Positions 16,054 to 57,490 of a stretch of DNA of 64,000 nt are shown here, piece after piece. Source of the DNA: Yoonia sp. (GTDB taxonomy: Bacteria; Pseudomonadota; Alphaproteobacteria; Rhodobacterales; Rhodobacteraceae); contig JAGSGF010000013.1 in assembly GCA_023955335.1 (NCBI GenBank), forward strand, positions 1 to 64,000. The letters are read 5' to 3'. A program made the translations under genes and the position numbers. Below the pieces are notes generated by a model, which was given only the letters and a program-made list of their open reading frames with translations, did no database searches and was not told where the DNA came from. Within the stretch, counting starts at the first letter, position 1, and every line of letters starts with the position of its first letter.

Positions 16054-17019
16054 ATGAACATGACCCTTAAAACCCTGATTTCAGGTACAACTGCTGCTCT
16101 TGCGCTTGCAGCTGGTGGCGCTGCTTTCGCTGAAGGCACGATCAAAATTGGCATCACGCAGAACAACGTGGGCGTCGACAGCTACCAGACAACTTATGAA
16201 AAATCTTTCATCGCAGCGGCTGAAGCTAACGCAGACGTCGAAGCTGTCGTGCTTGACGCTGGTGGCGACGTTGCCCGCCAAATTGCCCAAGTGCAGGATT
16301 TGATCCAGCAAGAAGTCGACGCGATCATCATTTGGCCAACCAACGGTGAAGCCGTGATCCCTGCGGTCCGCGAAGCCTTTAAGGCTGGCATTCCTGTCAT
16401 TGCGACAAACTCGAACATCGCCGAAGCTGGTTTCGATTTTATCGCTTCGTTCTCTGGTCCAGACAACATCACACAAGGCTCTCGCTCTGCTGAGATCATG
16501 TGCACCAAGTTCACCGACATGGGCATTGAAAACGAAGCCCGCGTTGTGCAGATTTCCGGACAACCCGGCTACACCACGGCGATTGAGCGTCAAAAAGGCT
16601 TTGACGATCGTCTGCCAGAAGTATGCCCCGGTGTGACACTTGTCGAGACACAGCCAGGCGACTGGAACCGCGAAAAGTCCCAGACCGTGATGGAAGCGTT
16701 CTTGGTGAAGTATGACGACATCGACGGCGTCTACGCTGGCGATGACAACATGGGCGTTGGCGCATTGAACGCAGCAAAAGCGGCGGGTCGTGAAGGTATC
16801 ATCTTTGTTGGTGCAACAAACTTTGCCGTTGGCTACGAAGCAATGGAACGCGGCGAGTACTGGGGCTCAATCTACCAGTCTCCAGTCGACGATGCCGAGG
16901 CAGCTTTGAAAACTGCGCTTGATATTTTGGCGGGTGAAGAGGTTCCATTCTTGAACTACTTCGACACACCAAAAATCACTCAAGACAACCAAGGCGAGTA
17001 CACAAAGCCGGTCTTCTAA
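16054..17019 (+). CDS. Periplasmic sugar-type ABC substrate-binding protein (RbsB-like, CUT2)
   Basis: The 321-residue protein has a signal peptide ending GAAFAE near residue 27. A class 1 periplasmic-binding fold follows, with KIGITQNNVGVDSYQTTYEKSF, ARQIAQVQDLIQQEVDAIIIWP and DGVYAGDDNMGVGALNAAKAAG. Such proteins bind pentoses, hexoses, polyols or autoinducer-2. It is the first gene of the rightward operon, with a strong ribosome site (GGGAGG). A stable hairpin follows, which usually keeps binding-protein mRNA more abundant than that of the permeases. The ligand is unknown; it presumably feeds both SDRs. Confidence 0.93.
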   Translation: MNMTLKTLISGTTAALALAAGGAAFAEGTIKIGITQNNVGVDSYQTTYEKSFIAAAEANADVEAVVLDAGGDVARQIAQVQDLIQQEVDAIIIWPTNGEAVIPAVREAFKAGIPVIATNSNIAEAGFDFIASFSGPDNITQGSRSAEIMCTKFTDMGIENEARVVQISGQPGYTTAIERQKGFDDRLPEVCPGVTLVETQPGDWNREKSQTVMEAFLVKYDDIDGVYAGDDNMGVGALNAAKAAGREGIIFVGATNFAVGYEAMERGEYWGSIYQSPVDDAEAALKTALDILAGEEVPFLNYFDTPKITQDNQGEYTKPVF

Positions 17020-51601: not shown

Positions 51602-56635
<5,034 letters not shown>

Positions 56636-56652
56636 AGTTTTTGTTCACTTTT

Positions 56653-56667
56653 GTTCTTATTTAGTTC
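56653..56667 (+). promoter_or_regulatory. LexA-type SOS box GTTC-N7-GTTC
   Basis: GTTC at 56653-56656 and 56664-56667 are exactly seven bases apart, the alphaproteobacterial LexA direct repeat. Another GTTC lies at 56643 and an inverted GAAC at 56691. The box lies between recG and a 40-codon gene on the same strand. Confidence 0.7.
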
Positions 56668-56678
56668 TTTACATAACG

Positions 56679-56686
56679 TTAACCAT
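56679..56686 (+). promoter_or_regulatory. CtrA half-site TTAACCAT beside the LexA box
   Basis: The same 8-mer found in front of ctrA lies 12 bp after the LexA-type box and about 50 bp before the small membrane-protein gene, hinting at joint SOS and cell-cycle control. Confidence 0.4.
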
Positions 56687-56736
56687 ATGAGAACAAAGGG
56701 GCAACAAAGAGAAACAAACACTGAGGGAGCAACAAA

Positions 56737-56859
56737 ATGGCCAAAGACATCAAAACCGCGATCGTCCGTTCAAGCGACACGATTATTGCTGATGCCATTG
56801 GCGCTGCCGCCTTGCTTGTGATGCTTTATGTCGGTTTGTCCCTGCCTGGGATGGTCTGA
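56737..56859 (+). CDS. SOS-linked single-pass small membrane protein (40 residues)
   Basis: ATG 56737 has GGGAG seven bases upstream. The product begins MAKDIKTAIVRSSDTIIADA and then has one hydrophobic segment (IGAAALLVMLYVGLSLPGMV), so it should span the inner membrane once with a cytoplasmic N-terminus. A LexA-type box and a CtrA half-site lie in front and a strong terminator behind, so it is its own transcription unit. Caulobacter SidA is a similarly tiny SOS-induced membrane protein that blocks division through FtsW. A comparable role is inferred from regulation and topology only. Confidence 0.72.
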   Translation: MAKDIKTAIVRSSDTIIADAIGAAALLVMLYVGLSLPGMV

Positions 56860-57003
56860 CCTGCCTCGCGATAACAGCGTCCGGTCCGTCACATTGCCTT
56901 GTCCCACCTATGCAATTTGATGACCTGCCTGTCCCATCCATAAGTCGGGGATTTGCCTCTCCCCTTTTGGACTACTGGATCGGATGCTAAAATCGCAAAC
57001 CTC

Positions 57004-57042
57004 ACCGCCGCCATCCTGTCCCGGATGTGCGGCGGTTTTTTT
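57004..57042 (+). terminator. Intrinsic terminator after the small membrane-protein gene
   Basis: ACCGCCGC (57004-57011) pairs with GCGGCGGT (57029-57036), with extra pairs ATCC/GGAT in the loop, followed by seven T. It also abuts the end of the convergent scaffold gene. Confidence 0.9.
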
Positions 57043-57490
57043 ATGCGCAGTCGGCTTGTGCGGATGCAATCGCATCGAGCGTGGCATCAAATGCAAGCAT
57101 AATGGACGCATGGCGATTTTTATACTCAGACGCTGGACGCAACACTTCGAGCCCATCAAAAGGGGCCATAGGGACCGGCCCGTCATCTTTCAGCATCGCC
57201 AACATCTGATCACGTCCCGTTTGGACGTCTTTGGGTGTCAAACCCACGATAACAGCCCCGACAACCGACGCTGCCGCCTGCCCAAGCGCGCAGGCTTTGA
57301 CGTCTTGGCCATAATCGCTGATGACGCCATCCGACAATGCCACATCAACGGTGACAGTGGATCCGCAAAGCGGCGCGCGCTTCTTGGCCGTGGCTGTTGG
57401 ATTTGCCAGACGGTCCGTACGTGGCATCTCGGCTGCAAGCGCAAGAATGCGTTGCGAATAAAGCTTCATCAAATCGTTCTCTGCTGACAC
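57041..57490 (-). CDS. IscU/NifU-like iron-sulfur scaffold protein
   Basis: The 149-residue protein has scaffold cysteines in APLCGSTV and [11 protein letters not shown]. The third conserved cysteine region reads RHASIMLAF, with Ala in place of Cys. Members of this branch are annotated as Fe-S assembly scaffolds, but the missing ligand makes a complete cluster site doubtful. It is divergent from hisI. Confidence 0.82.

Follow-up and report, generated by a model that had tools for sequence, protein, structure and literature searches.

On the 3' side of recG in Yoonia sp. lies a compact genetic unit in which an operator array, a coding frame, a structured 3' untranslated region (UTR), and an intrinsic terminator are linked; these elements and their linkage are apparent from the sequence. 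That they constitute an autonomous LexA-repressed transcription unit, with one transcript of about 350 nt yielding two products that would jointly delay division, is in our judgment an evenly poised proposition. The unit appears to combine, behind a single SOS operator, a protein family and a structured RNA that are both undescribed and each of a known kind, namely, SOS micro-proteins and 3'-UTR small RNAs (sRNAs). Rhodobacteraceae are an abundant family, and division arrest after DNA damage in most alphaproteobacteria outside Caulobacter is, to our knowledge, an open question; the unit is a widespread candidate for this function in a large bacterial family. Our literature search found no paper naming the gene or the RNA, an earlier description in supplements or subscription papers being possible, and the network paper on D. 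shibae (PMC6473078) makes no mention of the unit in its available passages and is without recG in its main text. The window is the whole stretch of 64,000 nt that was analyzed, and the positions of the features within it are collected in Table 1.

Table 1. Features of the unit and its upstream neighbor, with positions in the window
Feature	Position	Strand	Basis
Presumed recG, upstream neighbor, open frame of 696 aa	54545..56635	+	Open reading frame; used as query in relatives
Operator 1, three GTTC half-sites (56643, 56653, 56664), including LexA-type box 56653-56667	56643..56667	+	Box in 59/59 loci
TTTACA immediately 3' of the box, possible -35 element	56668..56673	+	Each position 76-98% identical, 59 loci
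GTTAACC, CtrA half-site	56678..56684	+	TTAACC in 16/59 loci
Operator 2, inverted GAAC-N7-CAAC, degenerate LexA box on the opposite strand	56691..56705	-	Positions from sequence
Shine-Dalgarno GAGGGAG	56723..56729	+	Read from sequence; ends seven bases before ATG
40-codon gene (ATG at 56737, stop ending at 56859), predicted single-helix membrane-type protein	56737..56859	+	Coding test, profile, AlphaFold2
Structured 3' UTR, candidate sRNA	56860..57041	+	Folding z-score, compensatory changes, model R1
P1 outer stem, 5' strand (partner 56977-56987)	56877..56887	+	7/10 pairs changed on both sides
P2 hairpin, loop CUUGUCCCACC	56892..56916	+	Stem around UGUCCC
Linker GACCUGCCUGUCCC	56922..56935	+	CTGCCTG in 48/55 UTRs
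P3 hairpin GGGG-AUUUGCCUCU-CCCC	56947..56964	+	Structure on alignment A3
Intrinsic terminator, loop UGUCCC	57004..57041	+	Hairpin prediction

Control region

A LexA-type direct repeat had been reported upstream of the small gene in the initial annotation, and it is there: three GTTC half-sites (56643-56646, 56653-56656, and 56664-56667) stand in a row, the last two forming GTTC-N7-GTTC, which is the alphaproteobacterial LexA box. The pattern per se is not rare: the window has 2 occurrences where 2.1 would be expected, and the 3.03-Mb genome has 58, as against 163 of the reversed pattern. The motif itself is weak, and it is its conservation in relatives that makes the box significant beyond chance. 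In all 59 loci of relatives it starts 72 to 106 nt 5' of the ATG, it recurs in all 37 named loci, and each of 20 divergent loci, from which 0.5 to 0.9 kb was fetched, holds at least one copy. A box lying entirely within -120 to -60 was found in 41 of the 59 loci and in none of 10,473 random 60-nt segments drawn from other parts of these loci. Best-scoring matches make up the 59 main loci, a choice that favors conservation; the 20 weaker loci and the recG ends of 20 profile-negative genomes were included as a counterweight. The full array, GTTC(N6)GTTC(N7)GTTC, is kept in 54 of the 59 loci and in 35 of the 37 named ones, and the inverted GAAC-N7-CAAC was found in 58 of 59 upstream regions. When anchored on the box, the consensus of the region over the 59 loci reads TGTTCnCAAAT-GTTCTCAAAAAGTTC-TTTACA-n4-GTTAA-nnATATGAGAACAAAGnnGCAACA; no -10 element matching TTTACA could be assigned on inspection by eye.

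The same genome provides positive controls. Its lexA gene (TIGR00498 match at C59:147460-148143) has the box just upstream, at 148179-148193, and the same box precedes by about 50 nt the gene that we take to be recA. Given these controls and the conservation of the box, LexA (SOS) control of the small gene is very likely, in agreement with the operator originally proposed. The accompanying suggestion of CtrA control did not survive as a conserved feature, since TTAACC is present in 16 of 59 upstream regions, TTAACCAT in 9, and TTAA-N7-TTAA in only 1; the looser CtrA-type TTTA-N7-TTAA was seen in 33 of the 59. An upstream mini-frame at ATGAGAACAAAG was considered as a conserved element and dropped, the frame not being kept as judged by eye.

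Further boxes in this genome deserve mention. Two overlapping GTTC-N7-GTTC boxes (C60:15632-15657) lie in the 3' end of what is presumably an imuA-like gene, just 5' of a presumptive imuB. The box GTTCCTAGTTTGTTC (C61:27054-27068) is followed by an uncharacterized frame of about 90 residues starting MPNVDENAPKTHYICQTYLEKKGAQ, and a near-identical box, GTTCTTATTTTGTTC (C62:8269-8283), is situated near a gene for what we assume to be a radical-SAM-like protein, a possible further SOS gene.

The small membrane-type protein

The 40-codon frame and good ribosome site described in the initial annotation are both present. In all 1,540 pairwise comparisons among 56 coding sequences, pN was below pS (median pN/pS of 0.39 for pairs with pS above 0.1), and the third codon position is the least conserved; on these two grounds the 40-residue frame is coding and under purifying selection. 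Among the close relatives L010, L012, L013, and L014, pS ranged from 0.26 to 0.53 and pN from 0.05 to 0.09. Residues R11, T15, D19, G22, L34, and P37 are invariant in an alignment of 39 members. AlphaFold2 predicted helices at residues 2 to 11 and 13 to 39 with a mean pLDDT of 87, and hydropathy averages 2.23 over 19 residues; the longer helix and its hydropathy bear out the single membrane helix that had been claimed, and the product is in all probability a membrane protein with a single helix. The lysines and arginine within the first 12 residues suggest an N-inside orientation. No model in Pfam or NCBIfam matches the protein of the window, and the gene is present as a single copy in its own genome.

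The 3' untranslated region

The 186 nt after the stop codon have a predicted folding energy of -71.2 kcal/mol, against -46.3 +/- 4.1 for shuffled sequences (z = -6.1). Covariation was assessed on alignment A3, which comprises 30 of 56 reference sequences: 29 from the genus, with L036 left out, and L039 from another genus. Over the whole structure, 96.8% of cells are paired and 13 pairs show changes on both sides, compared with 38 to 44% of cells and 3 to 8 such pairs when the partners are slid as a control; none of 500 shuffles reached any of five structure measures, figures to be read with the knowledge that the structure was derived from the same sequences, which favors it, and that relatedness inflates the shuffle result. 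The double changes fall on seven pairs in P1 (with up to 14 at a single pair among the 30 sequences), four in the terminator, and two in P2; the four pairs of P3 show none.

Sequence conservation within the RNA was examined in a set of 55 UTRs, from which L023, L053, and L055, with no standard terminator end, and L045, shortened to 57 nt, had been dropped. UGUCCC occurs 1.51 times per UTR, against 0.15 in shuffles, and its DNA form TGTCCC is present in 52 of the 55; the corresponding frequencies are 1.16 and 0.04 for CUGCCUG and 1.04 and 0.01 for CCUGUCCC. A P2 stem of at least 6 bp encloses UGUCCC in 42 of the 55 UTRs, against 30% with shuffled flanks, and one of at least 5 bp does so in 48, against 58%, which is moderately above shuffles. 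The sequence of the stem itself varies among genera (CATTGC/GCAATG, CATCGC/GCGATG, CAGATC/GATCTG, and GCGTATC/GATACGT).

On the wider family alignment A4 (29 of the 56 references), RNAalifold recovered the terminator alone, so that outside the genus P1 rests on the covariance model. This model, R1, was built on 30 loci and matched all 29 held-out loci on the strand of the gene and behind the frame, with rough E-values of 1.4e-23 to 1.2e-5, as well as all 37 named loci. Across the family, it was found in 99 of 149 genera (90 at E <= 1e-4 and 9 above 1e-4) and was not found in the remaining 50; weak matches need care, as a lone terminator hairpin reaches E 0.0013. The RNA directly adjoins the frame in 62 of the 64 genomes compared, these being drawn from the 99 as having both RNA and frame, with the weakest matches left out; in the other two, the RNA overlaps the frame by 42 nt in one and lies elsewhere in the other. 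We conclude with high confidence that the 3' UTR is a conserved structured RNA.

The strong terminator of the initial annotation proved to be a real hairpin, but its position is 57004-57041, separated from the stop codon by 144 nt and beyond the segment first assigned to the gene; a terminator-like hairpin within 350 nt of the stop is found in 58 of 59 loci. A scan of positions 56400 to 57200 against Rfam, up to E 1, gave nothing at the gathering cutoff, the sole match being a minus-strand hit to mir-153 that scored 21.6 bits where the cutoff is 54. StsR of Rhodobacter sphaeroides, a species that belongs to the same family, Rhodobacteraceae, was considered and set aside as a different RNA, of 72 nt and controlled by RpoHI/HII. 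Folding back of the 3' UTR as a block to translation was likewise rejected, since of the folds predicted for 59 loci a single one pairs the ribosome site with this region.

Distribution and synteny

A search with the single protein sequence retrieved the gene from all 36 genomes of the genus (E < 1e-9) and from 195 of 294 genera within Rhodobacteraceae (E <= 0.01), and none below E 0.1 in 24 genomes of other families. With a profile of 39 members, the coverage rose to 342 of 393 genera of Rhodobacteraceae (E <= 0.01). Named loci that carry the gene, some of which are genomes already counted in the other sets, include Yoonia, Loktanella, Cognatiyoonia, Roseisalinus, Marivivens, and Salipiger, and the nearest named matches are mostly Loktanella or Yoonia. 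Among approximately 380 genomes outside the family, weak profile matches (E 0.001 to 0.05) came from 22, which is the chance level. Eight of these 22 (L090, L092, L095, L096, L099, L101, L102, and L104) were examined and fall, at about profile positions 3 to 33, on the first helix of what we take to be MacB-like ABC permeases; two further matches cover the same profile span, in proteins that were left unread. Kinship with MacB-like proteins was rejected in favor of convergence, 22 matches at E <= 0.05 being the chance expectation for this number of genomes.

The position of the gene behind recG, our identification of which is by recognition, holds generally: recG is found just 5' on the same strand in 58 of 59 loci, with 92 to 173 nt between its aligned end and the small gene in 57 of them and 423 nt, from a partial match, in one. 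The conservation in relatives on which the initial annotation had made its proposal depend is seen for the frame in 342 of 393 genera and for the box in 59 of 59 loci. The exception to synteny is L054, in which a presumed purC-like gene lies upstream and the box and frame are retained, together with a match to R1 at E 1.2e-5. As L054 keeps box, frame, and RNA without recG, the unit stands alone; in this locus, the three have traveled together beside the purC-like gene.

Of the 51 family genomes that were negative with the profile, 20 were sampled and yielded 15 true recG ends; in 8, a small hydrophobic frame comes after an exact box, 3 have such a frame without an exact box, and 4 have neither. 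R1 matched below E 0.01 in 4 of these 15. The three loci with divergent small hydrophobic frames after recG and without exact GTTC-N7-GTTC are L185, L194, and L196, of which L185 nevertheless matches the RNA model at E 8.5e-6. For comparison, we took the recG ends of 28 loci from other alphaproteobacterial families, chosen as the best among the 106 outside genomes in which recG was matched; the box was present within 450 nt in none of the 25 that could be read (L203, L208, and L222 being unreadable), and R1 found nothing up to E 1 in any of the 28. Two Rhodobacteraceae loci included in that set both have the box. A phage or plasmid origin was considered and set aside: no phage match was obtained, matches to PHROGs were at chance level (best E 0.04), and plasmid records yielded a single match, in a 1.58-Mb plasmid of Pseudorhodobacter turbinis. 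Overall, the unit has the appearance of a trait at the level of the family Rhodobacteraceae.

ftsZ as a candidate target

The ftsZ gene was chosen as the one prior candidate, from the precedent of Klebsiella DinR, and its loci were fetched from 30 genomes of the genus; 26 of these could be paired with the RNA (all except G016, G020, G027, and G029). Leaders for comparison were produced by a script that took frames of at least 110 codons with a Shine-Dalgarno-like motif; they are not curated calls, and some have wrong starts. In the genome of the window (306 leaders from 364 kb), ftsZ heads the list for predicted pairing with the P2 loop (-20.5, against a median of -7.7) and also for pairing with the linker (-24.7); it comes third with the terminator loop and 27th with P3. 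Its rank for the P2 loop is 1 of 168 in G032, 1 of 150 in G005, 7 of 152 in G018, and 16 of 159 in G002, and when the best of the four segments is taken, the ranks across the five genomes are 1, 3, 1, 18, and 34; the P3 segment of G032 was taken from the P2 region, and the P3 rank there is void. In 100 trials each for the window's genome, G032, and G005, the observed rank was attained by 0, 3, and 1 shuffled P2 loops, respectively, and by 1, 11, and 4 shuffled linkers. A test with 56 leaders also placed ftsZ ahead of all window leaders for both the P2 loop and the linker. The first ftsZ test, which relied on long duplexes and was too crude, had put 8 of 26 genomes in the best tenth.

The predicted contacts can be located in the leader. 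CUUGUCCCACC would pair with GGUGGGACGGG, about 36 nt 5' of the ftsZ ATG, which by eye coincides with the loop of the leader hairpin GCCCG-GUGGGA-CGGGC, an arrangement like that of a kissing complex. Contiguous pairs between the P2 loop and ftsZ number 9 to 12 in 12 of the 26 genomes and at most 6 in 13, the script having picked a wrong stretch in G030; the match to ftsZ does not hold generally. The ribosome site of ftsZ, which reads ACAGGCGG or AUAGGCGG in the leaders inspected, is complementary to the linker sequence CUGCCUGU; for this pairing the median p is 0.045 over 26 genomes that are not independent of one another, yet it ranks 15th of 306 in the larger set. We regard ftsZ as a good lead and not as a result, and its status as a target of the RNA is tentative and, on these predictions, rather unlikely.

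The leaders themselves share several traits. In the 30 genomes of the genus, a hairpin-like GCCCG-N6-CGGGC is seen about 25 to 40 nt before the start, its loop being of two main types, GUGGGA and CGGGCA or similar, and the ribosome site is ACAGGCGGA or a close variant. The ftsZ gene of the window's genome lies on the minus strand of contig C16, near position 16056.

Proposed function and alternative explanations

We suggest that RecA on single-stranded DNA would trigger LexA cleavage, lifting repression and permitting synthesis of the single transcript of about 350 nt. The micro-protein would then enter the inner membrane with its N terminus inside and may damp the late divisome in a SidA-like manner, and the 3' UTR, whole or cleaved, would serve as an sRNA, its C-rich loops pairing with mRNAs in the vicinity of the ribosome site; the leading candidate mRNA for this RNA arm is ftsZ. 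Acting together, the two arms would delay division during repair. That the RNA acts in trans is a finely balanced supposition; that the protein inhibits division is possible by analogy, with the balance tilting slightly against it. The most specific form of the proposal, in which the protein stalls the assembled divisome and the sRNA shuts off new FtsZ through the UGUCCCAC loop kissing the ftsZ leader hairpin, together with CUGCCUGU at the ftsZ Shine-Dalgarno sequence, is decidedly speculative.

An explanation that dispenses with the RNA arm, and that we hold to be unlikely, is that a SidA-like protein alone acts, as a block on the divisome, with the 3' UTR serving just to stabilize and terminate the mRNA. 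It accords with a single-helix membrane-type protein encoded behind a LexA-type operator and with the example of SidA, a 29-aa SOS-induced inner-membrane inhibitor that acts on FtsW (PMC4211646); however, a stability element need not retain loop and linker sequences, and TGTCCC and CTGCCTG persist in 52 and 48 of the 55 UTRs, respectively. Joint delay of division by protein and RNA must also be weighed against a distinctly unlikely alternative in which the SOS membrane protein has a job other than in division, for example, modulation of an envelope transporter, DNA uptake, or release of gene transfer agents; alphaproteobacterial SOS single-helix proteins of this size include a division inhibitor (PMC4211646), which speaks against such a job. 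The alternative gains from the fact that no division target emerges from the present data and from the eight weak outside matches that fall on the first helix of MacB-like proteins, the total of such matches being at about the chance level. A further alternative, and a very unlikely one, is an SOS-induced toxin or dormancy peptide that, like TisB, acts on the membrane, with RNA structure limiting its translation. A tiny hydrophobic helix, an SOS operator, and a heavily structured mRNA would suit it. However, toxins of this kind are usually patchy in distribution, and the gene is present in one copy in its own genome and syntenic across much of the family; pairing of its ribosome site with the 3' UTR is seen in 1 of the 59 folds; and no antisense RNA gene was noticed, the search for RNAs being the Rfam scan of 56400 to 57200 with its single subthreshold match.

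Comparison with known systems

The operator carries the exact motif of the alphaproteobacterial LexA box, which is also found at lexA and recA of this genome, and differs from the plain box in being extended to three half-sites with an inverted GAAC-N7-CAAC. For SidA, we know of no conserved structured 3' UTR. As described for Caulobacter crescentus, SidA is a 29-aa inner-membrane protein that is SOS induced and inhibits division via FtsW (PMC4211646). The present protein resembles it in being tiny, alphaproteobacterial, and, by prediction from the sequence, located in the membrane and under SOS control, and it differs in length, with 40 residues against 29 (PMC4211646); the likeness may concern a possible mode of action and not kinship.

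A second precedent is provided by the small-protein gene ccaF1 of R. sphaeroides, the 3' UTR of whose mRNA yields the regulatory RNAs CcsR1-4 (PMC8625941). The present candidate sRNA would share with these RNAs an origin in the 3' UTR of a small-protein mRNA, whereas ccaF1-CcsR1-4 is described as induced by oxidative stress (PMC8625941). The ccaF1-CcsR case shows that in such bacteria sRNAs can be released from the 3' UTR of a small-protein mRNA (PMC8625941).

The third precedent is DinR of Klebsiella pneumoniae, which is reported to be cut from the 3' UTR of the LexA-controlled dinI mRNA and to repress ftsZ by pairing at its ribosome site (PMC10907235). The layout of that system recurs here, with a structured 3'-UTR RNA on an mRNA that is, as judged from its sequence, LexA controlled and that ends in an intrinsic terminator. 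In both, a short mRNA under LexA control, which is predicted here, has an sRNA or candidate sRNA within its 3' UTR, and ftsZ is a candidate target in the present case; in contrast, the dinI product is described as a modulator of the RecA filament and not as a membrane protein (PMC10907235). The ftsZ-pairing stretch of DinR is described as Klebsiella specific, whereas the present RNA is family-wide, and the two are likened by description (PMC10907235). If the two-armed checkpoint is correct, it would amount to a fusion, in a single gene, of the strategies of SidA and DinR across much of one bacterial family.
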